The notes under the pieces are model-generated. The model worked only from the letters and a program-made list of their open reading frames with translations, searched no databases and was not told where the DNA came from. Below, piece by piece: positions 3,328-31,094 of a DNA stretch of 31,094 nucleotides. A program made the position numbers and the translations under genes. Location: positions 1 through 31,094 of IMG/VR virus record IMGVR_UViG_3300015171_000020; one strand, written 5' to 3'. Each line of letters opens with the position of its first letter. The stretch's first letter is position 1. The DNA comes from a virus.

Positions 3328-5996
3328 GGGGAGCATTCGCACAGTCGGCCATCCCGGCGATGGACAACTCACTCCAGCCACGGGCGGAAGAAGACGCACT
3401 ACCCGAGAGCGTGGTGGTCAACATGCCGCGCCGGCCCGGGGCGCAGATGGTCGACGGCGCGGCCGAAACGCCCATGGGTGATGGGTCGTTCATGATCGAC
3501 CTGGACGGCGACACGGACGCCGGCGGCATGGAAGAGCAGGACAAGGGCGATCCGACCGAGCACGGCGCCAACTTGGCCGAGCACATGGCCGAGACGGACC
3601 TGATGCTGATCGCGCAGAACATCGTGCAGGCAGTCGATCAGGACGTGGAATCGAGAAAGCCGTGGTTCGACATGGTGGCCAACGGCATCAAGAAGCTCGG
3701 CATCGAAGTGAACGATGCCGATGCGCGGGAAATGGGCGTCTTCAAGATCGCCCGGCGCGCAAATTACCCGCTGATTCAAGAGGCATTGGTCCAGTTCCAG
3801 GCGCGATTCATTGCCGAACTCTTCCCGCCCCAGGGGCCTGTGAAGACCGGGGTACTGGGGCAGAGAACGGCCGATGCGGTCGAGCGTGCGCAGCGCGTCG
3901 AAGACTACATGAACTACCAGTTGACCTTCGACGACCCGACGTACTTCGAAGAGACGGACCAGCTGGGCTTTCTCCTGGGGATCGAGGGCAGCATCTTCCG
4001 GAAGGGGTATCAGGACCCGCTGCAGGGTAAGAACGTGCTGCGCATGGTCAGGGCTGAGAACCTGGTGGTGCCGTACCACGCGACGAGTCTGGACAGTGCC
4101 AGCCGCTTCACGCATCGCGTTGACCTGCCGCACAACGATCTCCTGAAGCTCCAACAGGTCGGGTTCTACCGCAAGACGGACGTGGCGATGGCCACGCGCG
4201 AGCGCGATTCGGGCAACAGCGACGGGGTGATGGTCGAGGCCCGCGACAAGGCCGAGGGCAAGCAGGAGCCGGGCGGGGCGCCGGAACTCGAGGACGATAT
4301 CCCGCACCGCATCGAAGAGTGCTACATCGACCTGGACCTTGCGGGCTTCGAGCACCAGAACGATGCCGGCGAGGCGACGGGGATCAAACTACCCTACGTG
4401 GTGCACGTCGAGCGCGAGTCGCAAGCGGTCATGGCGGTGTACCGGAACTGGAAAGAGCAGGACCCGCTCAAGAAAAAGCGGGTGCCGTTCTCTCACTACC
4501 GCTACCTGCCGGGGACCGGGTTCTACGGCTGGGGGCTCTTTCACGCGATCGGCGGACTGGATGCCGCAGCCACAGGCCTGTTGCGCACGGCGCTGGTGGC
4601 CGAAGCCTTCGCCGGTGCCGGTGGTGGTTTCAAGACGAAGCAGGGCCGCGCGATCGACGGACAGGTCGAACTCGAGCCCGGCGTGTTCAAGGACGTGGAC
4701 GCAGGCTATGAAGACCTGCAGCAGGCGTTCTGGAAACCGGACTTCAAGGGCACGAGCGAGGGCACGTTCAAGCTCCTGGGGATCATCACTGAGGCTGGCC
4801 AGCGGTTCGCCTCGACGACCGAGAACATGGTGGGCGATGCGCAGAACACCGGGCCGGTAGGCACGACCGTGGCCCTGATCGAGCAAGGCTCGAAGGTGTT
4901 TTCCGGGATTCACAAGCGGTGCCACGCGGCGGCCGGCAACGAATTCAACATCCTGGCCGATCTGGACCACGAGTTTATGGCGCCCGGGGAGACGTACCCC
5001 TACGAGGTCGAGGGGGCGTCGAAAGAGATCATGCAGGAGGACTTCGCCGACCAGGTGCGGATCAAGCCGGTCAGCGACCCGAACATTTATTCGAGCACAC
5101 AGCGGATTGCGATTGCCCAAGCCGGTCTGGATCTGGCGAACAACTCGCCCGACCTCTTCAACCGGCGAGAAGCCAACCGCCGGATGCTGGAAGCCCTGCG
5201 GTCGCCGGACATCGACAGCCTGATGCCGCCCAAGGGCAAGACCGCCCGGATGGACCCGGTGACGGAGAACGCAATGGTGATGGTCGGACGGGGCGTAAAA
5301 GTCTTTCCCGACCAAAACCACCAAGCCCATATCGCGGTGCACATGGGGCAGCTTCAATTGATGGTGGCGCAGAAGTCGGCCGCCCTTCAGACCGCGCAAC
5401 CCTTACTCGTGGCGCATATCGCCGAGCACGAGGCCGAGGCGATGCGGGTGCAGTTGATGCAGGACATGGGCATGCAACTCCCGCCGATGGACCTGTACGC
5501 CGAGGATTCGGCAGAGGGCACGCCCGACATTCCGCCCGAGGTCGAGGACGCGATTGCGGTCAAGGCCGCGGGCGTGATGTCGGCGCTCATGAAGCAGTTG
5601 AACGAGCAGCAGGCAGCGCAAGCGACGCCGGCTGGCCCAGCGCAACCCGATCCGGCGGCCGAAGAGGCGCGCCTAGACCAGTCGGCCGCAGCCAAGCAAC
5701 AGCGCGATGATGCGGCAGCGGCAGCGGCGGAACACCGCAAGGACGCGGCGCTGCATGCACAGGTCGATCGAGAGGACGCCTTGGGTGGATTGGACCCGGC
5801 CTCAGTGAAGGAAGCGCAGGGGTATCTGGCCAAGCTCGGGCTCGACCAGATGATCAGCCCGCGCCAGTTGTCCGTGGTGTCGAGAGCCCTGGGCAAGTCG
5901 TTCGACGACACCGTGAGGATGATCATGGCGATCAATTCAGGTGGTCAGGGTATGGGAGCATCGCCCGGAGCCCTGCCGTACGCGGGGAGGCGATAG
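3324..5996 (+). CDS. Portal (head-tail connector) protein
   Basis: This is a portal protein of 890 aa, long for the class (many are 400-750 aa). The portal ring is the DNA channel at one head vertex and the terminase docking site. The core, residues about 95-600, contains portal-like blocks: ANYPLIQEALVQFQARFIAE near the N-terminus, a GTGFYGWGLFHAIGGLDAAA segment in the middle, and the helical QNTGPVGTTVALIEQG region. The first about 90 residues are acidic and disordered (DLDGDTDAGGMEEQ). The last about 130 are Ala/Gln/Asp-rich with coiled-coil character, followed by a Gly-rich tail. The GTG start at 3324 has GGGAGG upstream, and the stop abuts the next ATG. The position after terL supports the call. 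Confidence 0.88.
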   Translation: MRGAFAQSAIPAMDNSLQPRAEEDALPESVVVNMPRRPGAQMVDGAAETPMGDGSFMIDLDGDTDAGGMEEQDKGDPTEHGANLAEHMAETDLMLIAQNIVQAVDQDVESRKPWFDMVANGIKKLGIEVNDADAREMGVFKIARRANYPLIQEALVQFQARFIAELFPPQGPVKTGVLGQRTADAVERAQRVEDYMNYQLTFDDPTYFEETDQLGFLLGIEGSIFRKGYQDPLQGKNVLRMVRAENLVVPYHATSLDSASRFTHRVDLPHNDLLKLQQVGFYRKTDVAMATRERDSGNSDGVMVEARDKAEGKQEPGGAPELEDDIPHRIEECYIDLDLAGFEHQNDAGEATGIKLPYVVHVERESQAVMAVYRNWKEQDPLKKKRVPFSHYRYLPGTGFYGWGLFHAIGGLDAAATGLLRTALVAEAFAGAGGGFKTKQGRAIDGQVELEPGVFKDVDAGYEDLQQAFWKPDFKGTSEGTFKLLGIITEAGQRFASTTENMVGDAQNTGPVGTTVALIEQGSKVFSGIHKRCHAAAGNEFNILADLDHEFMAPGETYPYEVEGASKEIMQEDFADQVRIKPVSDPNIYSSTQRIAIAQAGLDLANNSPDLFNRREANRRMLEALRSPDIDSLMPPKGKTARMDPVTENAMVMVGRGVKVFPDQNHQAHIAVHMGQLQLMVAQKSAALQTAQPLLVAHIAEHEAEAMRVQLMQDMGMQLPPMDLYAEDSAEGTPDIPPEVEDAIAVKAAGVMSALMKQLNEQQAAQATPAGPAQPDPAAEEARLDQSAAAKQQRDDAAAAAAEHRKDAALHAQVDREDALGGLDPASVKEAQGYLAKLGLDQMISPRQLSVVSRALGKSFDDTVRMIMAINSGGQGMGASPGALPYAGRR

Positions 5997-6191: not shown

Positions 6192-6614
6192 ATGGGCGCA
6201 GCAGAGCACGGCAACAATTACGAGGGCAATTGGCTGAATCCGGAGGAAGTGGTCATGCCGGATGGGCTACCGAAACCGACGCTGTGGCGGGTGATGGTGT
6301 GCCCGGTGCAGCCCAAGACGATGAGCAAGGGCGGCATTGCCTTGCCGGCGACGGTTGGCGACGCCGAGCAGTACCTGAACTACATCGGCAAGGTCGTGGC
6401 GATGGGGCCGCTTGCTGGCGTGAAAGCGGAATTCGCTGACCCCAAGACCGGCGAGAGCACCTACAAGGTCAACGTCGGGGACTGGGTGGCCTACGGCCGC
6501 TACGCCGGCCAGAGGATCGAATACAAGGGCGTGCGTCTCCTGTTATTGAACGACGACGACGTGACCCTGACGCTGCCGGCGGGCCCGGCGGGATTCAAGA
6601 TTTACGTGGAGTAG
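6192..6614 (+). CDS. GroES-like co-chaperonin (Cpn10)
   Basis: Residues about 30-140 read as a Cpn10 beta-barrel. A start WRVMVCPVQPKTMSKGG leads into a flexible loop, followed by LNYIGKVVAMGPLAG, VNVGDWVAYGRYAGQ and a closing YKGVRLLLLNDDDVTLTL. The loop holds the hydrophobic tripeptide I49-A50-L51, at the place where GroES has the Ile-Val-Leu that contacts GroEL. At 140 aa it is longer than bacterial GroES (about 97 aa) because of an N-terminal 28-residue extension and a larger loop after 'GPLAG'. A good ribosome binding site (GAGAGG) precedes the ATG. It lies between portal and scaffold, so it probably helps the host GroEL fold the capsid protein, as T4 gp31 does. The fold call is from sequence pattern; the client is inference. 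Confidence 0.8.
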   Translation: MGAAEHGNNYEGNWLNPEEVVMPDGLPKPTLWRVMVCPVQPKTMSKGGIALPATVGDAEQYLNYIGKVVAMGPLAGVKAEFADPKTGESTYKVNVGDWVAYGRYAGQRIEYKGVRLLLLNDDDVTLTLPAGPAGFKIYVE

Positions 6615-16307: not shown

Positions 16308-17210
16308 GTGGCGAGTTCGTACACCGATCTTCTCAGGATTGAGCAACAAGCCGACGGGGAAAACAACTCCACCTGGGGCCAGAAGCTCGCCGCCGCCGAC
16401 AACATGCTCGAGGACGGCATCGCCGGGCGTGCGGCCGTGGTCATGGCGTCGGATGCGAATCGCACGCTGACGACAGCCAACGGCACGGTAGACGAAGCCC
16501 GGATGGCGATCCTCTACGTCACGTCAGGCGTTGCTCTGACAACCACACGCGACATCATCGTGCCCACGTCTTCGAAGAAGTACGTGGTGACGAACGCGAC
16601 GACCGGCGGACAGTCTATCCGGGTCAAGACCGCAGCTGGTACGGGCATCACGATCCCGAACGGCAACACTTCCATCTTGTTTTGCGATGGGACAAATGTG
16701 CTGACCATGCTCGATTACATCGCTGGTGCGCTGGCGATAGTAGGCCCGTTGACAATTTCTGCGCAGCCCGCTTTCCGTGCGTATGCGGCTGGAACGATAA
16801 TCAACAATGTAACCGGGGATGGCACGGACTACACGATCGCGCTCGATACAAAGTCCTTTGACCGAGCGACTAACTTCAATACCGGAACCTACACATTCAC
16901 CGCTCCGGTAACAGGGCTGTATCAGCTTAGTGCCCGTGTGTACCTTGAGGGCTTGGCGGCAGGTCACACGGACGGCGTTGCTTGGATCGCTCTCACAGGC
17001 CCCACAAGCGCAACCATATTCGATCTAAACGTGGGAGCTGTTCTCGGCTCTGGTGGAGCAGCTACGTTTTGTGGCTCTGGATCAGTTCTAGTTGCTATGA
17101 CTGCCGGAGACACCGCCTCACTACATGTTTCGGTATCGGGCAGCACAAAGACCGTAGATATAGTGGCCGGTGCAGCGGCCACCATGCTCTGCGGCCACTT
17201 GGCAGCATAA
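16308..17210 (+). CDS. Tail fibre with C1q-like C-terminal domain
   Basis: The GTG at 16308 follows an AAGGAGA site. Residues 1-45 (SSYTDLLRIEQQADGENNST, WGQKLAAADNMLEDGIAG) are the common attachment motif found at the start of many phage fibres. A beta linker follows. Residues about 153-300 look like a C1q/TNF-type jelly roll: AFRAYAAGTIINNVTGDGTD, then FDRATNFNTGTYTFTAPVTG, LYQLSARVYLEGLAAGHTDG, and a final MTAGDTASLHVSVSG. C1q-like heads trimerise and bind ligands, which fits a receptor-binding tip. The 3' half is poorer in GC than its neighbours. The target receptor is unknown. Confidence 0.75.
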   Translation: MASSYTDLLRIEQQADGENNSTWGQKLAAADNMLEDGIAGRAAVVMASDANRTLTTANGTVDEARMAILYVTSGVALTTTRDIIVPTSSKKYVVTNATTGGQSIRVKTAAGTGITIPNGNTSILFCDGTNVLTMLDYIAGALAIVGPLTISAQPAFRAYAAGTIINNVTGDGTDYTIALDTKSFDRATNFNTGTYTFTAPVTGLYQLSARVYLEGLAAGHTDGVAWIALTGPTSATIFDLNVGAVLGSGGAATFCGSGSVLVAMTAGDTASLHVSVSGSTKTVDIVAGAAATMLCGHLAA

Positions 17211-17225
17211 AAACACTGGGAACAA

Positions 17226-17501
17226 ATGAAATCGATCCTCGCACTTCTCCTGATCTTCGCGCCGCTCGCAAACGCCGCCGACAAGTACGCGCCGCCGCCT
17301 TCGCCGGACGTTTACAGAGGCCAGCCCGTACCAATGCGCCCAATCAACGGGCAGATGGCGCAGGCAGGCACAACGTACAAGCCGCCCGTAATCCAGCCGC
17401 CGCAAATCAATCCAATGCCGAACCTCCAGCCGCTCGGCCCGCTCCTAACCATCGATCCGCGAGTGTTTCTTCCAAGCGGACCGGCCCTCATCAGATACTG
17501 A
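17226..17501 (+). CDS. Secreted proline-rich protein (91 aa)
   Basis: A Sec signal peptide (MKSILALLLIFAPLANA, cleavage before ADKYA) is followed by about 74 residues very rich in Pro, Gln and Asn (VIQPPQINPMPNLQPLGP), with no cysteine. Proline-rich short secreted proteins include outer-membrane spanins, but those need a lipobox cysteine, which is missing here. It sits between the C1q fibre and the nozzle-like gene. The ATG has a GGGAA site. The last bases (TACTGA) fall just before the next gene's ribosome binding site. The function is unknown. Confidence 0.6.
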   Translation: MKSILALLLIFAPLANAADKYAPPPSPDVYRGQPVPMRPINGQMAQAGTTYKPPVIQPPQINPMPNLQPLGPLLTIDPRVFLPSGPALIRY

Positions 17502-17518
17502 ATACAAGGGACCAAGGC

Positions 17519-19312
17519 GTGAGCCTGAAAGACTTCCTCATCAAGCCCGGGTTTTTCACCCTGGACACCGACCGCGATTCCAAGGGCCGGTGGAAGAATG
17601 GGGACCACGTTCGATTCTGGAAGGGCCTGCCGCAAAAACTCGGCGGCTGGCAAAAGCGCGCAACCTCCACGTTCCTCGGGATCTGCCGGGCGCTGACCGA
17701 CTGGGAAACGCTTGCCTTGGTGCCGTACATCGCCTTGGGCACGCACCTGAAGCTGTACGTGTTCAACAGCATCTTCTACGACATCACGCCGACGAGGACC
17801 TCTGGCACGTACGGCAATAACCCGCTCACCACCACAAGTGGATCGGCGGTGGTAACGATTCACCATGTCGCCCACGGTGAACTGGCCGGGGATTACGTGA
17901 CCATCGGCGGGGCCACGGCGGTGGCAACCATCACCGTGAGCGGGCAGTACACCGTGACTTCGGTAGTGGATGCGGACAACTTCACCATCACGCACTCAGC
18001 ACCAGCGAATGCGAACGCTGTCGGCGGCGGAGCGGTGGTGACGTATGTGTACGACATCCACGTCGGCAACGTCGATTCCGTGCCGGGCCTGGGGTATGGC
18101 GCCGGTTCGTACGGGGTTGGAACGTACGGAACACCCCGCTCGATCACAGACTTTCTCACCTTCGCGCGCATCTGGTCCTTGGACCAGTGGGGCGAAGACC
18201 TGATCGGATGCCCGAGGGACGGCGGTATCTACCTGTGGGACGCATCGGTCGGCACCGGAACGCGCGCTGCGGCGATAGTTGGTGCGCCGACCACTGCAAA
18301 AGCCGTTTTCGTGTCGGCCGAGAACCGGCAGTTGGTGGTGCTCGGGGCGAGTGGTGATCCGATGCTGATTCAGTGGTCCAATGCCGAGGACTACAGCGTC
18401 TTCACCCCAGGCGAAACCGTGACCGCCGGGGAAAAGAGGGTGGACATCGGCAACCAGCTTTATTGTGCGGTCAAGGGCAAGCATGAAACGCTGATCTTTT
18501 CCGACACCTACGTATGGTCCATGCAATTCATCGGGCCGCCGTACAACTTCGGCTTTGAGGGCTTGGGCTTCACCAACTCGATCATGGGGCCGAACGCGGC
18601 CGTCGAATTGAACGGGGTCGCCTACTGGATGTCGCAGAACGAGTTTTACTACTACGACGGCGAGATCAAGGTCCTGCCGTGCGATGTCCTGAACCACATC
18701 GTTGACGACATCAACGTCGACCAGCGGGTAAAGGTGTACGCGGGCGTGAACCGGGAATTCGGGGAAGTGTGGTGGCTGTACCCGTCCTCGCTTTCGACCG
18801 AATGCGATCGGTACGTTGCATTCAACCCTACGGATGGGACGTGGGTGTACGGCACCCTGGCCCGGACCGCGCTAAACGGGGAATTGAAGACCTTCACCGA
18901 CGTGGTGGCCACGGGCATCAACGGGATTCTGTACGACCACGAGGCCGGAGTGGACGACGATGGTAGTGCAATGACGGCCTACCTCGAAAGTGCGGACGCC
19001 GAGCTCCAGGCGGTAAACCCGATACAAGGCCCGGCCACTGGCGAGGGCGAGAACATGATGTTCGTCAGGGGGCTGATCCCGGACTTCAAGACCCTGACCG
19101 GCTCGGTGGACATCACCCTGAAGGCCAAGCGGTACCCGCAATCGACCGAGCAGATTTCCTCGACACCAACCACGGTGACTGCATCGACGCTCACGGCGAA
19201 CGCGCGTATCCGGGGAAGACAGATCGACGTGTATATCGAGTCCGACGAGATCGGCGACCACTGGCGCATGGGGCGTCTGCGCCTTGACACGAGGCCCCAC
19301 GGCAAAAAATGA
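17519..19312 (+). CDS. Tail nozzle/hub-like virion protein (597 aa)
   Basis: The start is GTG 17519, behind AAGGGACCAAGG. The longer open frame in phase (from 16982) runs through two other genes and is discarded. The protein opens with SLKDFLIKPGFFTLDTDRDS and RWKNGDHVRFWKGLPQKLGG, a beginning I recognise from podovirus hub/stabilisation proteins. It then has WD/beta-propeller-like beta repeats with an inserted Ig-like region (about residues 105-175, rich in Thr/Val/Gly). After these come WSNAEDYSVF, GEKRVDIGNQLYCAVKGKHE, YVWSMQFIGPPYNFGF and YWMSQNEFYYYDG. P22 gp10 and related nozzles have a beta-propeller that plugs the tail. This is the best analogy, not a proven homology. Confidence 0.68.
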   Translation: MSLKDFLIKPGFFTLDTDRDSKGRWKNGDHVRFWKGLPQKLGGWQKRATSTFLGICRALTDWETLALVPYIALGTHLKLYVFNSIFYDITPTRTSGTYGNNPLTTTSGSAVVTIHHVAHGELAGDYVTIGGATAVATITVSGQYTVTSVVDADNFTITHSAPANANAVGGGAVVTYVYDIHVGNVDSVPGLGYGAGSYGVGTYGTPRSITDFLTFARIWSLDQWGEDLIGCPRDGGIYLWDASVGTGTRAAAIVGAPTTAKAVFVSAENRQLVVLGASGDPMLIQWSNAEDYSVFTPGETVTAGEKRVDIGNQLYCAVKGKHETLIFSDTYVWSMQFIGPPYNFGFEGLGFTNSIMGPNAAVELNGVAYWMSQNEFYYYDGEIKVLPCDVLNHIVDDINVDQRVKVYAGVNREFGEVWWLYPSSLSTECDRYVAFNPTDGTWVYGTLARTALNGELKTFTDVVATGINGILYDHEAGVDDDGSAMTAYLESADAELQAVNPIQGPATGEGENMMFVRGLIPDFKTLTGSVDITLKAKRYPQSTEQISSTPTTVTASTLTANARIRGRQIDVYIESDEIGDHWRMGRLRLDTRPHGKK

Positions 19313-23543: not shown

Positions 23544-26500
23544 ATGCCCCAACCCCAAGGCGCGTTCTCCACGTTCGACGGGAAGACGGACCAGGAAACT
23601 GGTACCGCCTTTGCCCCATTCAAGGGCGAAACCGACCAGGACAAGGCCGAGCGGGCCAAACGTCCGGGCCTCGTGCGCGAGATTGGTAGCCAGATCAGCG
23701 ACGCGCTGCTCTACCACTTGCCCGCGGCGGTCGCCTCCACCATCGAGGGCGAAAAGCCGTTCGAAGAGCGGAATTTCCTCGACACGGTGATCGAGCGCGG
23801 CAGGAAGCGCGCGAAAGAGGTCGGCGAGCAGCCCGGCGCGCAGGATCCGCTCGCGTTCGGCGCGTTCTCGCGCGAGGACGTGAGGAATCTGGGGCCGAGC
23901 CTCGGATTCTCCGGTGCTGGAATGGGTGCGGGGCTTGCTGCAGGCCTACCTGCGGCCGCAATCAACCCGGTGGCCGGATTCGCCGCAGGGGGCGCTGCTT
24001 CGGGCACAGCTGCCTACCGCATGCAGTACAACCAATTCATGCGCGACGCGCGGGATAAATTCGACGCCGATTCGGTGAAGTCGCGCGGCACTCCGCTTTC
24101 GGACGCAGAATTTGCAGAGATCGAACCAACGCTCGCCGAGCACGCGCACAAGACCGGACTGTGGGAAGCGGTGCCCGAGGCCCTGGGGAACATGGCGATG
24201 GCCGGAATCATCGCCTCGCCCGTGCGCAAGATGCTCCCCGGGGCGGTCGCCAAGATCGCCGACAAGAACATCTTTACCCGCGGCGCGACCAAGCTCGGGC
24301 TCATGCAGGCCGAGGAATTGCCGACGGAAACCATCACCCAGATCGGCCAGCAGCAGGAACAGGTGAAAGCGGGCCTCGGCAAACCCGGCGAAATGGTCCG
24401 GTCCTTCACGAACCCGGACGACTGGCTGACCTCGTTCAAGGAAGTGGCCGGGCCCGTGTTCCTGCAAACCGCATTGATGGGCGGTGCTGGTGCGGCCGGA
24501 CACGCCGGATACAAAGCGCTGCGGCCGGATCGCCCAGGCGCTGATCTACCGCCCGTCACCACCGAGCACGACTCCACGCTGCGCGATGTCGCGGCGCGTA
24601 AGGGTCGGATGGAGGCCGATGCGACGGCTGAACCCGAAGCACCTGAAACGCCCGCGCCCGAGGCGCATATCTCCCCGGTCGAAGAACAGCCGACCGAGCG
24701 CCCGGGCGAGTTGGAAGCCCTGCGCAAAATGCTCGGCAAGGACATAGAGAAGGGCATCCTGACCGACGAAGACCGGGCGTTACTCCTGGAAGCGGGGCAC
24801 GCACGCGAGAACAAGCAGGGCGGACTGACCCCACTTCCTGCCGGCCGCCGGCGCCTGAAAGAGCTTGAGGCCCAGCAGCCCATCGACGAAGCGGCGAACC
24901 AGGCCGCGGCGAGCCCGAACAACGACCTCGAGGAACCGACGGCGGGTCAGGCCGAAGCCGGCAACTACAAGAAGGGGCCGGTGAACGTCGGTGGCCTGGA
25001 CATATCGATCGAGAACCCGGCGGGCAGCACGCGCGAGGACAAGGCGAACCAGCCGCCCCAGTGGACGCAGGAAATGTCCGACCATTACGGCTACGTGAAG
25101 GGTGTTCCAGCGCGCGCACCGGACAAGGAGCACGTCGACACGTTCGTGAAGCCCGGCACGCCGGCAGGATTCAGCGGGACGGTGTTCGTGGTGGACCAGA
25201 GCAACAAAGAGGGCAAGTTCGACGAACCGAAGGCGATGATAGGCTACGATTCCGAGGAAGAGGCGCGCGCCGCGTACGCCCGGAACTACCCGGCCGACTG
25301 GAAAGGCCTCTCCCAGGTCACGCCGATGTCGATGGACGAATTCAAGGCCAAGCTGCAGGACAAGGATGCGTTCATGCAGGCGCAGAAGCCGATCGCCGCG
25401 CCGGCCGAAGAGAAAACCGGCCTCGTGCCTGCCGACGCCACCAACCTGCCCGCCGTGAAGCAGCAACTGTTCGTGGAGCGCGGAATCCAGCGTTCGCCCG
25501 TCGATTCGCTTGAAGACGCAGCCGCGAAGTGGGAACAATTCTTCAGCGCCGCGGTGCGCAAGGGTGCGGGCGGCGCCGGCGAGTCCATCGGTGGCGCGAA
25601 AATCATCGACCAGGACGGCAAGGAAGTGGCGCGCATCAGCCAGAACGGGAAAATCTGGCCACCGGGCGAGTGGAAGTCAGGCATGAAACCGCTGATCGGC
25701 GAGAGTTTCAAGCCGTCAGCGGAGCCGGCGGCGATAGAAGCGGCCACCGCGCAACCCGCACTCACAAAAGGAGCCGAGAGTGAACAACCGAAGCCAGTAC
25801 CCAAACCAGATGCGGCCCGGCCTGGGAAGAAGCCCAGCAAAGCCGAAGGCAAAACCGCAGCCGCGCCCGCAGCCAACGAAGGGACGCAAGTAGCGCCACC
25901 TATCGAGGACGACCGCAAGCCGAAATTCAAGGTGGGCGACATCCTGAATGCCGTCGACGGCGAAGAGGGCATGCAAGCCCGTATTGCCTACGGTGGCGAA
26001 GGGAAATACGCCGTGAGCTTGTGGGACACGGACGCGGACAAGGCTCTGAACACCGTCACTATCTACCCGAACTTCGAGGACGCGAAAGCGGCGGCCGAAA
26101 AGCTCGTCGGCGAGAAACCGGCGCCGGCGCTGACCGATGAAGAGCGCGCCAAGGAAGACCTGAAGGCCGCGCTCGCGGATCTCGGCGACCTCCTGGGCAA
26201 GAACGGCCGCCTGAACGTCACGCCCGAGCAGGAGCAGAAACTGTTGCCGGTCATGACGCGCCTTTTCGATGCCGCGTTTCGTCTGGGCTACATCAAATTC
26301 AAGGCCGCGGCGCGCTTCGTGCGCGAGAAGATCACCGACGCGCTGGGCAAGGACGTGGCCGACGAACTCACCCTCGAGCATTACCAGGGTGGGTACATCG
26401 CCATGTCCGGGCGCTACAAGGAGAAGGGGGCCGAGAGCGCGCGCGAGGTTGCGGCCGTCGATAGTCTGGATGAGGAAGCGCCGATTGATGAAGTTAAGGC

Positions 26501-29500
26501 GCGCGCCGATGCTGCCATGGCAGCGGAGCCCGAGTCTGCGCCAGTCACGCAGCCGCATACGGTTTTCAGTCCTACCAAGGCCGCGCTGATACCGACCCGA
26601 GAGGGCATCAAGGTGCAGCCGCTTGACGAGAGTGGCGCGAATGCTGGACCCGCACACATGGCCGGCGAGAAGGCCACCGAATCCGCACAACCGACTGGTG
26701 AGCGCCCGAAAGACGGCGACGGCAACCCCATCTACAAGAAGGGCGAGCGCGTCGAATTCACTGACGGCCAGCACAAAGGCCGGCACGGCGAGATAGCGGT
26801 GGCCGCGCCGATCACCATGCACATCATTGGCGTGTTCGGCGGTGGCAATCGCACGGAAAAGACCACCTACCACTACGAGGTCAAGACCGACAACGGCGCC
26901 CAGGTGTTCGGGCACCAACGGGAATTTGAGCCCGAGACGGCCAAACCCGAGAACGTGGTGCCGGACATCCACATTCAAGGCCATTGGACCGAGCCTGAGA
27001 GCGTTTGGCGGCAGATCCAGAACGCTCGCTCGGGTGCCCGCGGCGCGCGTGAGAAGCAGGCCCGGGCTAAACTCCAGGCGAAGAAACAGGAATGGGCGAA
27101 GGACGCCGCGCAGCGCGACAAGAACGCCGATGTAGCGCAAGCCGCCTTCGATGCCTGGGCCGAGAAGCACCCAGAGGCCGCGCAGGCGATCCCGGGGGAC
27201 GCGAAGCCTGCAGCACCGGCCCTGAGCGCACCCGCGACCACCGAAGCGACCGAAGGCCTGCCAGCCATGACGCTGCACGCCAACCGGAAGCACGGCAAGA
27301 CCGGCGCGACCATCCATGTGGTGACGCTGAACGACCGGGTATCCCCGGACGTGTTCAGCACCCTCAAATCGCGCGCAGCGAAGTCAGGCGGCCACTACTC
27401 GAGCTACCGCGGCCGCGGCGCGCTGCCCGGGTTCGTCTTCACCGACGAGGCCAGGGCCCGCGAATTCATGGGCCAGGAGCCCGAAAAACCGGCCGAACAG
27501 GCGGCGGAACCTGCGGCGGCGCAGCAAGCGCCCGCCAATCCCCTTGCAGCCGCGGCGGAGGCGCTTATCCAGGCGGCGCAGGCAGTCAAGGACGCTGCGG
27601 CACCAAAACCCGAAACCCCGGTCTATACTGGAACTGAGGCCCAAAATGACCAACCCGTACAGCCAGATGTACCAGGACCTACTGACCGAGCGCAACCCGC
27701 GCAAGCTGGCGGCGCTGATCAAGAGCGGCCAGCTGGAAGCGGTGCTGAAAGAGATCGGGGAGACGGCAACCGAGGAAGAGCAGCGCCTGACACGGGAACT
27801 GGCGAAGGAAAGCCTGGGCGGAAGGGGGCCGACAGCATCGAACGTGACGTTCCAGGAGAGCGCACAGGCGATGTCGACGGCGGCGGTGAGCGCGCGGGAG
27901 ATAGTCAGACAGCAACTGGAAGGGATGGCCGCAGGGGCGCTGCCCTTGGAGTCAACTACCGCATAACGGCGGACGACGACCTCGGCAAGGGGTCGTGGAA
28001 GGTCAAGGCGCGCCAGAACATAGACGCCATTCGCACGCTCAAGCGCATCGTCGCCGAAGAACGCCAGGCCACCCCGGAAGAGCAGGCCACGATGGTGAAG
28101 TACGTGGGCTGGGGCGCCACCGAACTCGCCAACAACATCTTCGAGAAGTACATCCAGCAGCCGTTCGGCCGTAGTCACTACGGCTACGGCAAGGGGTACG
28201 AGCAGCTTGGCGAGGAATTGAAGGCGCTCCTGACCGACGAGGAATACGCGCGCGCGAAGGAATCGACCCAGAACGCCCACTACACGTCCGAACCGATCAT
28301 CAAGGCTATGTGGCGCGCGATGCAGCGGTTCGGGTTCACCGGTGGCCGCGCCCTCGAGCCTGGGCTTGGTGTCGGCCACTTCCTCGGCCTGATCCCGGAG
28401 GATCTGGCTGGCAAGGTGAAATACACCGGCGTGGAGCTCGACCCGAGCACCGGGAATATTGCCAAGCAGCTTTACCCGCAGTCCGACATCCGCGTGCAGG
28501 ACTTCACGAAGTTTGTGATGCCGGACAATTTCTACGACGTGGCGATCGGCAACCCGCCGTTTGCCGACATCGTGATCAAGAGCGACAAGGCCTACAAGAA
28601 ATTCGGGCTGCGCCTGCACGATTACTTTTTCGCCAAGGCGATCGACAAGGTACGACCTGGCGGCGTGCTGATGTTCGTCACGTCCAAGGGCACCATGGAC
28701 AAGCAGGACGACTCGGCGCGGAAGTACATCGCCGAGCGCGCCGACCTGGTGGGCGCGATCCGCCTGCCGCAGGACTCGTTCAAGGAGAACGCGGGCACCG
28801 AGGTAATCACCGACGTGCTGTTTTTCAAGAAGCGGGCCGAAGGACAGGCGCCGGCCGGCGAGGGCTGGAACGACGTGGTTCAGATCGACACGAAGGACGG
28901 CCCCACCGAGATCAACGAATACTTCGGCCGCCACCCGGAAATGATGCTCGGCGAGCCCATGCTGTCGGGCAGCGAGCTTGAGGGCGGCGGCAAGGTCAAG
29001 GGGCTTTACCGCGGCGAGGGCGAATTCACGCTGCTTTCGCGCGAGGGGGCGGACATCGCGGCCGAATTCGACAAGGCCGTCGACCGCATGCCAGAGAACG
29101 TCTACGAGGAACGCGCCTCGAAAACACCCGACAAGGTGGCGCCGGAAGTGATCGACGTATCCCCGGACCATATTAAGGAAGGCGCGTACTACCTGAAGGA
29201 CGGCAAGGTGCTGCAGCGCCGCCAGGGTGTTGGCCTGAAGGCCGACGTATCCGGCATTGCGGAGAAGGTGATCCGCTCGTTCATCCCGCTGCGCGACACG
29301 GTCAAGGACGTGATCCGCACGCAGCTCGAGTCGGACGACCCGAAAGCCCTGAAAGCCGCGCAGTCGAAGATGGCCAAAGCCTACGAGGCGTTTGTCCAGA
29401 AGCACGGGCCGATCAACAAGGAAGTGCACACCAAGCGCACGAACAAGGCCGGCGATGAAGTGGTATCGATCCGCACCCCGAACATTTCCGCCTTCAGTCT

Positions 29501-31094
29501 GGATCCGGAAGCCTACCGGGTTGCGGCGATCGAGAGTTACAACCACGACACCGGCAAGGCCACAAAGCGGGCAATCTTCACCGAGCGCGTAATCAACCCG
29601 CCCACTGAGGCGGAAACAACCTCGCCGGCGGACACCCTCATCTGGTCGCTCAACGAGTACGGACGCCTGGAAACGAAGGCCATGGCCGAGCGCCTTGGCA
29701 TGGACGAGGGCAAACTGATTGAAGAGCTTGGGGATTCGGTCTACCAGGACCCAGCGACGCAGCAATGGGTGACGGACGACGAGTACCTATCTGGCGATGT
29801 CCGCGACAAACTCAAGCTCGCCGAGGAATCGGCCAAGGCCGACCGAGGCTATGACCGCAACGTCGAGGCGCTGAAGAAGGTCCAGCCGCGCGACCTGAAG
29901 CCGTCGGAAATATACGTTCGGCTGGGCGCGCCGTGGATCGACACCGACTACATCGAGGAATTCGCCCGTGAAGGGCTTGGCATTGGCAACGTGAAGGTAT
30001 CGCACGTCCGCGAAGGCGCCATGTGGAGCGCCACGGGCGGGGCCAGTGCATCGGTCAATGCTACTTCGACATGGGGCACCAACCGCGCGAATGCCGTGGA
30101 GTTGCTTGACAACGCGCTCAACGCGCGCACGCCGCGTATATACGATCTGGTTGGATCAGGCAACGACCAGAAGCGGGTATTCAACGAGGTCGCCACCCAA
30201 GCCGCACAGACCAAGCAGAACGAGATCCAGCAGAGATTCTCGAAGTGGCTCTGGGAGGACGGCGAGCGCGGTGCCGCATTGGCCGAAATCTACAACCGCG
30301 ACTACAACAACATCGTCCCGAGGGTGTTCGACGGCAAGCACATGACGCTGCCGGGCCTCTCCGCAGCCTACAAGCCGTACGACCACCAACGGCGTGTCGC
30401 CTGGAGGATCATCCAGCGCGGCAATACCTACATGGCGCACGAGGTTGGTGCCGGCAAGACCATCGCGGCATCGATCGCCGGCATTGAAATGCGCCGGCTG
30501 GGTCTGATCAAGAAACCCGCCTACGTGGTTCCGAAGCACATGCTGCGACAGTTCGCCACCGAATTGCTGTCCCTGTACCCGGCTGCAAAGGTGTTGGTCG
30601 CCGACGAAGAGAACTTCGACGTGAAGGCCCGGGGCACGTTCATGGGCCGCGTCCAGGCGGAAAACTGGGACGCGGTGATCTTCGCCCACTCGTCTTTCGG
30701 ATTCGTGCCCATATCGGATGAATTCGCCCAGGGCGAGATACAGGAAATGGTGGACCTGTACGAGGGCATGGTGGAGGACACGCCCAAGACCGAGCGCGTG
30801 AAGCGTAAGCAGCTCGAGCGGGCGCTGAAGAGGTTCCGCGAAAAGCTCGAGGCCCTGACCGACCAAAGCGGGAAAGACAAGGGCATGACGTTCGAGGAAG
30901 CCGGGATCGACTTCATGTTCGTGGACGAGGCGCACTACTTCCGCAAACTCGACTTCCCCACCAACCAGACCAATGTGAAGGGCATCACGGGCGAGGGCTC
31001 CAAGCGCGCGATGGATCTCTTCTTCAAGACCCGGTACATCGACAGCCTGCACAAGAATCGGTCGCTGGTCCTGATGTCCGGGACCCCCATCACG
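23544..31094 (+). CDS. Giant polyvalent protein: pyrophosphatase-like, N6-adenine DNA methylase, SNF2-like helicase (partial, at least 2,517 aa)
   Basis: The frame stays open from ATG 23544 to the window end. Domains by residue: 123-160 and 303-325, Gly/Ala hydrophobic segments; about 474-605, inorganic-pyrophosphatase-like (GLDISIENPAGSTRE, HYGYVKGVPARAPDKEHVD with D527, E529, D532); about 793-860, small beta domain; about 874-978, a conserved helical domain (TPEQEQKLLPVMTRLFDAAF); about 1062-1133, SH3/KOW-like; about 1244-1310, conserved alpha/beta unit (KSGGHYSSYRGRGALPGF); 1369-1474, a Gly/Arg/Asp disordered linker overlapping another gene. Then come YVGWG at 1520, SAM motif EPGLGVGHF at 1605, NPPF at 1670, Walker A HEVGAGKT with K2305, DEAH at 2461, and GTPIT at the edge. 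Known relatives (DarB-like, polyvalent proteins) are thought to enter with phage DNA and counter restriction. Confidence 0.92.
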   Translation, partial: MPQPQGAFSTFDGKTDQETGTAFAPFKGETDQDKAERAKRPGLVREIGSQISDALLYHLPAAVASTIEGEKPFEERNFLDTVIERGRKRAKEVGEQPGAQDPLAFGAFSREDVRNLGPSLGFSGAGMGAGLAAGLPAAAINPVAGFAAGGAASGTAAYRMQYNQFMRDARDKFDADSVKSRGTPLSDAEFAEIEPTLAEHAHKTGLWEAVPEALGNMAMAGIIASPVRKMLPGAVAKIADKNIFTRGATKLGLMQAEELPTETITQIGQQQEQVKAGLGKPGEMVRSFTNPDDWLTSFKEVAGPVFLQTALMGGAGAAGHAGYKALRPDRPGADLPPVTTEHDSTLRDVAARKGRMEADATAEPEAPETPAPEAHISPVEEQPTERPGELEALRKMLGKDIEKGILTDEDRALLLEAGHARENKQGGLTPLPAGRRRLKELEAQQPIDEAANQAAASPNNDLEEPTAGQAEAGNYKKGPVNVGGLDISIENPAGSTREDKANQPPQWTQEMSDHYGYVKGVPARAPDKEHVDTFVKPGTPAGFSGTVFVVDQSNKEGKFDEPKAMIGYDSEEEARAAYARNYPADWKGLSQVTPMSMDEFKAKLQDKDAFMQAQKPIAAPAEEKTGLVPADATNLPAVKQQLFVERGIQRSPVDSLEDAAAKWEQFFSAAVRKGAGGAGESIGGAKIIDQDGKEVARISQNGKIWPPGEWKSGMKPLIGESFKPSAEPAAIEAATAQPALTKGAESEQPKPVPKPDAARPGKKPSKAEGKTAAAPAANEGTQVAPPIEDDRKPKFKVGDILNAVDGEEGMQARIAYGGEGKYAVSLWDTDADKALNTVTIYPNFEDAKAAAEKLVGEKPAPALTDEERAKEDLKAALADLGDLLGKNGRLNVTPEQEQKLLPVMTRLFDAAFRLGYIKFKAAARFVREKITDALGKDVADELTLEHYQGGYIAMSGRYKEKGAESAREVAAVDSLDEEAPIDEVKARADAAMAAEPESAPVTQPHTVFSPTKAALIPTREGIKVQPLDESGANAGPAHMAGEKATESAQPTGERPKDGDGNPIYKKGERVEFTDGQHKGRHGEIAVAAPITMHIIGVFGGGNRTEKTTYHYEVKTDNGAQVFGHQREFEPETAKPENVVPDIHIQGHWTEPESVWRQIQNARSGARGAREKQARAKLQAKKQEWAKDAAQRDKNADVAQAAFDAWAEKHPEAAQAIPGDAKPAAPALSAPATTEATEGLPAMTLHANRKHGKTGATIHVVTLNDRVSPDVFSTLKSRAAKSGGHYSSYRGRGALPGFVFTDEARAREFMGQEPEKPAEQAAEPAAAQQAPANPLAAAAEALIQAAQAVKDAAAPKPETPVYTGTEAQNDQPVQPDVPGPTDRAQPAQAGGADQERPAGSGAERDRGDGNRGRAAPDTGTGEGKPGRKGADSIERDVPGERTGDVDGGGERAGDSQTATGRDGRRGAALGVNYRITADDDLGKGSWKVKARQNIDAIRTLKRIVAEERQATPEEQATMVKYVGWGATELANNIFEKYIQQPFGRSHYGYGKGYEQLGEELKALLTDEEYARAKESTQNAHYTSEPIIKAMWRAMQRFGFTGGRALEPGLGVGHFLGLIPEDLAGKVKYTGVELDPSTGNIAKQLYPQSDIRVQDFTKFVMPDNFYDVAIGNPPFADIVIKSDKAYKKFGLRLHDYFFAKAIDKVRPGGVLMFVTSKGTMDKQDDSARKYIAERADLVGAIRLPQDSFKENAGTEVITDVLFFKKRAEGQAPAGEGWNDVVQIDTKDGPTEINEYFGRHPEMMLGEPMLSGSELEGGGKVKGLYRGEGEFTLLSREGADIAAEFDKAVDRMPENVYEERASKTPDKVAPEVIDVSPDHIKEGAYYLKDGKVLQRRQGVGLKADVSGIAEKVIRSFIPLRDTVKDVIRTQLESDDPKALKAAQSKMAKAYEAFVQKHGPINKEVHTKRTNKAGDEVVSIRTPNISAFSLDPEAYRVAAIESYNHDTGKATKRAIFTERVINPPTEAETTSPADTLIWSLNEYGRLETKAMAERLGMDEGKLIEELGDSVYQDPATQQWVTDDEYLSGDVRDKLKLAEESAKADRGYDRNVEALKKVQPRDLKPSEIYVRLGAPWIDTDYIEEFAREGLGIGNVKVSHVREGAMWSATGGASASVNATSTWGTNRANAVELLDNALNARTPRIYDLVGSGNDQKRVFNEVATQAAQTKQNEIQQRFSKWLWEDGERGAALAEIYNRDYNNIVPRVFDGKHMTLPGLSAAYKPYDHQRRVAWRIIQRGNTYMAHEVGAGKTIAASIAGIEMRRLGLIKKPAYVVPKHMLRQFATELLSLYPAAKVLVADEENFDVKARGTFMGRVQAENWDAVIFAHSSFGFVPISDEFAQGEIQEMVDLYEGMVEDTPKTERVKRKQLERALKRFREKLEALTDQSGKDKGMTFEEAGIDFMFVDEAHYFRKLDFPTNQTNVKGITGEGSKRAMDLFFKTRYIDSLHKNRSLVLMSGTPIT
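27636..27639 (+). promoter_or_regulatory. Ribosome binding site of the nested gene
   Basis: GAGG at 27636-27639 lies six bases before the ATG at 27646, an ideal spacing, although it is inside the coding sequence of the giant gene. It sets the nested start at 27646 rather than at the in-frame ATG at 27544, whose translation would be an arginine-rich shadow. Confidence 0.6.
27646..27966 (+). CDS. TnpV-like small protein nested out of frame in the giant gene (106 aa)
   Basis: This frame lies wholly inside the giant gene, in the +1 phase. The protein is a normal-looking helical one: MTNPYSQMYQDLLTERNPRK, LAALIKSGQLEAVLKEIGET, RLTRELAKE, then VSAREIVRQQLEGM near the end. The order L-x-x-SG-x-L, A-x5-RL, late M, then A-x-EIV-x-x-L resembles TnpV proteins of mobile elements as I remember them. 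The similarity is by pattern, not alignment. About 86 of 106 sense codons end in G or C (81%), while the giant frame over the same bases has about 51 of 105 (49%), although it has 37 of 40 just downstream. A GAGG site is well placed. The function of TnpV is unknown. The alternative is a chance open frame, which the codon pattern argues against. Confidence 0.72.
   Translation: MTNPYSQMYQDLLTERNPRKLAALIKSGQLEAVLKEIGETATEEEQRLTRELAKESLGGRGPTASNVTFQESAQAMSTAAVSAREIVRQQLEGMAAGALPLESTTA

Follow-up and report, generated by a model that had tools for sequence, protein, structure and literature searches.

The TnpV genes of C. difficile elements are separate genes located near serine recombinase and mob genes (PMC3158075). 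The small protein described here belongs to the same sequence family as TnpV of Tn4451-type elements (PF14198). Unlike those genes, however, its gene does not stand separately beside recombinase and mob genes of an element, but is nested out of frame in an antirestriction gene of a phage virion module. The enclosing gene resembles those of the DarB-like proteins (P1 DarB; PMC5512222), with which it shares the InPase, adenine methylase and SF2 helicase domains; P1 DarB is also virion-borne, yet its gene encloses no nested +1 gene. The main text of Iyer et al. 2017 (PMC5512222) mentions neither TnpV nor overlapping genes. Embedded genes are familiar from the Rz/Rz1 spanins, noted for phage JC1 (PMC9144972), in which a small gene likewise lies fully inside a larger one on the same strand and in another frame. 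Rz/Rz1 is nevertheless a lysis pair of small genes, whereas here a TnpV-family gene overlies a disordered linker within a gene that is several thousand codons long. No report of the nested gene was found among the titles and abstracts listed from the open-licence literature on TnpV, Bcep22-type phages, DarB-like proteins and overlapping genes.

The nested frame and its enclosing gene

The window, i.e., the whole stretch of DNA analyzed, is a 31,094-base fragment from IMG/VR that carries terminase, portal and head genes. The giant protein encoded near its end matches phrog_10089 (DarB-like antirestriction, E 0) and combines InPase, adenine methylase and SF2 helicase in a single polypeptide, as is characteristic of DarB-like polyvalent proteins; the helicase part, matched by phrog_62 (2.6e-13), continues past the contig end. 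Elsewhere in the window, positions 6192-6614, between the portal and head genes, match the phage co-chaperonin GroES (phrog_3188, 8.8e-12). Positions 16982-19312 match a phage virion structural protein family (phrog_3287, 1e-56) and, under the curated cut-off, PF12195 (3.4e-7), a beta-barrel domain of phage endosialidases.

Table 1. Features of the nested locus and of its plasmid analogue
Feature	Positions	Strand	Remarks
Giant DarB-like polyvalent gene	23544..31094	+	2517 aa within the window; 3' end past contig
InPase domain PF18823, giant protein	24945..25355	+	2.9e-44
Shine-Dalgarno TGAGG	27635..27639	+	6 nt upstream of nested ATG
Giant-frame linker, aa 1368-1474	27645..27965	+	G/R/D/P/Q-rich, no stop
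Nested TnpV-family gene, 106 aa	27646..27966	+	ATG start; +1 relative to giant frame
KYVGWG motif, start of methylase-helicase core	28098..28115	+	45 codons past nested stop
Eco57I-type adenine methylase domain PF07669, giant protein	28506..28751	+	9.8e-7
pTet-type 159-aa ORF	L200:3001-3480 (C. jejuni 81-176 pTet, NC_006135.1); L199:92-568

The initial annotation described a complete out-of-frame gene at this site, with its own GAGG ribosome binding site and a third-position G/C of about 81% against about 49% in the giant frame. The ORF does lie entirely within the giant gene and is equipped with a ribosome binding site, a start and a stop of its own (Table 1); third-position G/C over the nested bases was computed as 81.1% for the nested and 47.7% for the giant frame. 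Codon-usage fit in the window was 0.25 for the nested frame and -0.27 for the giant frame, the latter being close to the worst among all segments of the giant gene; across loci, codon usage favours the nested frame in 46 of 48. The start signal is also shared by relatives: a Shine-Dalgarno core (GGAG, GAGG or AGGA at -15 to -4) precedes 50 of the 53 starts defined by homology, compared with 7.3% of other ATG and GTG codons in the same frame and loci. No RNA families were found near the nested site.

ORF length was rejected as evidence. Long +1 frames are common by chance in GC-rich DNA, and shuffles synonymous for the giant protein yielded an open +1 frame of at least 106 codons in 85% of cases and of at least 140 codons in 41%. 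A further ATG-initiated +1 ORF of 106 aa lies within the giant gene at 26269-26589; it has no PHROG match and is probably due to chance. That the nested gene is likewise a chance open frame in GC-rich DNA, with the giant gene alone being real, could draw on this second ORF and on the non-significant length. Its probability is nonetheless negligible, as it is already refuted by conservation: what goes beyond chance is homology (a curated family match and a profile chain controlled with decoys), recurrence at the same place, the conserved start signal, the codon fit, and selection, with dN/dS inverted between the frames.

Recurrence and homology across phages

The resemblance to TnpV, suggested in the initial annotation by the pattern of the protein, was borne out by Pfam. 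The nested protein of the window matches TnpV (PF14198) with E 8.1e-8 and 32.7 bits, above the curated gathering cut-off of 27, and the match joins residues 5-91 of 106 to most of the profile (26-110 of 111). Among 58 aligned nested homologues, 23 match PF14198 themselves (E<=0.01; best 2.8e-10), while several members of a second subfamily, termed MNLNNW-type, reach it only under the cut-off.

To assess recurrence, the 80 IMG/VR loci nearest to the window were chosen by the methylase domain alone. Each of the 80 carries in the +1 frame an ORF at this site, whose end lies a little before the methylase, and the longest +1 ORF averages 121 aa at these loci versus 41 aa in +2. The MNLNNW-type subfamily was found independently and includes phages of Agrobacterium, Sinorhizobium, Klebsiella, Erwinia, Pseudomonas, Microcystis and Ochrobactrum. 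In a separate search for this type, the gene was nested in 83 of 92 loci, always in +1; the remaining nine comprise two at a contig edge, the Sinorhizobium phage PBC5, one broken giant frame and five without an enclosing frame. The distance from the nested stop to the (K)Y-x-GWG motif of the core has family quartiles of 40-49.5 codons, a range that includes the window. The nested arrangement some 45 codons before the methylase-helicase core is conserved in distantly related phages, and what was first noticed as a single case is a widespread family. The lack of any homologue and stops in the nested frame of relatives had been named beforehand as arguments against the gene; homologues occur in very many phages, and the frame stays open there.

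An iterative profile seeded by the window protein recruited 129 of 130 nested proteins (some contigs are counted twice in these rows) and none of 4533 decoys, which consisted of shuffled sequences and other-frame ORFs of the same loci. The sole nested protein outside the chain, L180, was shortened by automatic start choice. Single-sequence searches with the window protein gave no matches, nor did an alignment of four window/Lessievirus-type proteins used as query, and it was the survey anchored on the methylase that led to the homologues. Compared directly with the MNLNNW-type profile, the window protein scored 14.3 bits against 18.7 for the best shuffles, and this match was rejected; since it is no better than shuffles, the kinship between the window and the MNLNNW type rests on Pfam and on the decoy-controlled profile chain. 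No close relative of the window was found, the best nested identity being about 28%, and the defence (PADLOC) and NCBIfam libraries gave no recurrent match to the nested family.

Exceptions to the common arrangement are few. In three loci (L111, L172 and L181) the giant ORFs are shorter, and the nested gene is still enclosed. Separate family members without a methylase-helicase nearby are rare (L095, L102, L103 and L106), and an ancestral-type separate copy beside an unfused methylase-helicase was not found among the loci.

The expectation that automated annotation drops such a gene also held. Among 29 phage records (21 MNLNNW-type and 8 Lessievirus-type), none lists the nested gene separately; what they show at the site is the giant gene or other genes. 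Gene finders that bar same-strand nesting overlook it, and its product would escape any virion proteomics in which spectra are compared with annotated proteins alone. In the record of Pseudomonas phage Itty13 (L005), minus-strand ORFs are annotated as genes across the giant plus-strand gene, which is probably a misannotation.

Coding constraint and probable expression of the two frames

The AlphaFold2 model of the nested protein consists of four helices without a strand (mean pLDDT 90.2, pTM 0.77), and the family is acidic, with a median net charge of -4.5. Structure searches with the window model found no similar solved structure or viral model; the model of the L015 nested protein had one significant viral match only, with an identity of 70%, the same as for PBC5. 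The giant frame over the nested gene encodes a stretch rich in G, A, R, D, S, E and P, in which hydrophobic residues plus Cys amount to 11%, versus 26% in the nested frame. In the window linker itself, V, I, L, M, F, Y, W and C make up 8%, versus 25% across the whole giant protein.

Selection was measured in related phages rather than in the window, because near relatives of the window were not found. The third position of a codon normally changes fastest. Across eleven Agrobacterium-type phages, differences at nested codon positions 1, 2 and 3 were 0.088, 0.074 and 0.220, and in the giant gene just downstream 0.110, 0.065 and 0.410. Over the overlap the giant third-position difference drops from 0.41 to 0.07, because the same base is the nested second position. 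Lessievirus phages follow the same trend less cleanly (nested positions 0.065, 0.084 and 0.139). The dN/dS of the nested frame in four groups was 0.15, 0.07, 0.28 and 0.17, whereas that of the giant frame over the same bases was 1.8, 1.5, 1.8 and 2.7, and downstream of the overlap it was 0.04-0.11. Giant-frame values above 1 are what overprinting would give and are not taken as a sign of positive selection. The initial annotation had proposed this two-frame comparison and regarded purifying selection in the giant frame alone as evidence against the nested gene; at 0.07-0.28 versus 1.5-2.7 in relatives, it is the nested frame that is most strongly constrained.

The giant frame is nevertheless maintained. 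It has no stop over the overlap in the 130 rows, while pooled synonymous reshuffling of nested genes leads one to expect 0.6-2 giant-frame stops per gene; for 50 dereplicated loci, the probability of zero stops is ~1e-30, a figure that is overstated, as the loci share descent. Since the giant frame stays free of stops despite the nested-frame constraint, both frames are kept, and the locus has the features of an overprinted same-strand pair, with a complete second ORF under purifying selection in relatives and a maintained host frame. Judging from these sequence comparisons, the same DNA very probably encodes two proteins, a TnpV-family gene being conserved inside the giant gene.

Alternatively, the giant frame might be untranslated across the nested gene, so that two proteins would flank a tnpV-like gene. 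Such a split would agree with the low-complexity, fast-changing product of the overlap, with its poor codon-usage fit and with the annotation of PBC5 as two genes. We regard it as highly improbable in view of the stop-free rows and their reshuffling statistics, and of single proteins of at least 4500 aa annotated in records. Virions of JC1, whose nested ORF lies at L003:5699-6037, moreover contain the giant product gp69, represented by 51 unique peptides of unspecified position within the protein (PMC9144972), and on this basis the giant frame is translated.

In the PBC5 record, the giant gene is split: the TnpV-like domain forms the end of orf33, and orf23 encodes the methylase separately. 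Here the nested ORF continues the frame of the N-terminal half. The frame switch lies between 5128 and 5174 of L007, within 45 bases before the nested start, and may reflect an indel, a sequencing error or a real arrangement. This configuration would be expected if programmed frameshifting, rather than internal initiation, produced a fusion of the N-terminal half with TnpV. It comes, however, from one 2001 record only, in which an indel or sequencing error is possible; many relatives (e.g., L043, L049, L067 and L082) have the +1 frame closed a few codons before the ATG, and Shine-Dalgarno sequences are present before the nested starts, leaving frameshifting a very slight probability. The length given for phrog_938 (2185) equals that of PBC5 orf33, and the PBC5 frame switch probably shapes this family as well.

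Internal initiation remains the favoured route: in all likelihood, ribosomes would start at the nested Shine-Dalgarno sequence on the late mRNA, giving both proteins from one message. Of the two frames, the TnpV-like one is probably the older and the constrained one, and the low-complexity linker of the giant protein would be the overprinted product; homologues outside phages, codon fit and fold point in this direction. The linker would connect the methylase-helicase with the virion part at the N-terminus, and staying free of stops would be all that is required of it. The most strongly conserved protein read from the overlap is the unlisted one, and the family offers a large and deep natural series for the study of overprinting, in which a folded protein is hidden while the annotated frame is a disordered linker.

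Possible function and plasmid counterparts

The strict coupling to the core, together with presence in phage but not in the nearest plasmid copies, suggests a partner role, and we tentatively propose that the nested protein may be a dedicated partner of the DarB-like methylase-helicase. It could, for example, be a small factor that binds the enzyme during synthesis and virion loading, or one that holds it inactive until injected. P1 DarB is packaged in the capsid along with several small helper proteins, and by analogy these would suggest such a role. It is a more doubtful proposition that, in a large group of phages, the coding sequence of the giant injected antirestriction enzyme encloses the gene of its own small partner; should this be true, the enzyme could be neither made nor inherited apart from its control or loading factor, because both share the same bases. 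The nested gene offers a testable handle on the control or packaging of DarB-like giant proteins, and it indicates what kind of role might be sought for TnpV proteins in general, which are still poorly understood.

The nested gene could also be real and its function unrelated to the giant protein, e.g., if it encoded a free protein for anti-defence or host takeover that is kept there to save space. The rare family members that form genes of their own, with no methylase-helicase close by (L095, L102, L106), would fit this, as would the PADLOC result, no known defence kinship tying the nested protein to the enzyme or elsewhere. We consider it somewhat unlikely, given that even distantly related phages strictly keep a spacing of 40-50 codons between the gene and the core, and given the rarity of the family elsewhere: in bacteria, it was detected in one of 369 genomes of one class, namely the centre genome itself. 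When four host genomes were searched for the TnpV family, the controls gave no match either, so that the absence of matches there carries no weight.

For TnpV of Tn4451, a role in excision was postulated from homology to lambda Xis (PMC3158075), and the nested protein might by extension be an excisionase-like DNA-binding protein. The gene lies in a virion module, with no integrase seen adjoining. Lambda Xis has a winged-helix fold with strands, whereas the predicted model of the nested protein is all-helical, and the protein is acidic. Taken together, these features make an excisionase role very unlikely.

In homologues from rhizobial, pTi and Roseomonas plasmids, the core is 41-44% identical and the protein starts only 67-84 codons before the core match; the nested gene is absent there because the short upstream part leaves no room. 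Nor was a nested gene seen in the copies examined from P1 (DarB), an Enterococcus plasmid, a Nocardia plasmid, a Streptococcus phage and a gut phage. The SNF2/methylase gene of Campylobacter pTet, in contrast, resembles the phage case in enclosing a +1 ORF just before the core (159 aa, with AAGGAG before the ATG). This ORF was found in 206 Campylobacter and 6 Helicobacter plasmid records, without its own gene entry in those shown. Its position differences are coding-like (0.146, 0.082 and 0.386), and a +1 open stretch of equal length arose in 0.35% of shuffles there. Unlike the phage protein, it does not match TnpV, and it is for now treated as an analogue. If the partner proposal is true, the analogous +1 genes of the Campylobacter and Citrobacter plasmids would point to a general design of methylase-helicase polyvalent genes.

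The Citrobacter case is plasmid pF217-2 of C. braakii (L194), in which a TnpV-like-looking +1 ORF lies inside an SNF2-related gene just before position 4001; the 72-aa piece tested had no Pfam match. In Pseudidiomarina sediminum (L103:5971-6762), a relative of the nested protein occurs in a 263-aa frame whose C-terminal part looks membrane-spanning. A separate family copy of Variovorax sp. WS11 (L106, 6001-6321) lies head to head with what appears from its sequence to be a type I restriction-modification methylase gene.
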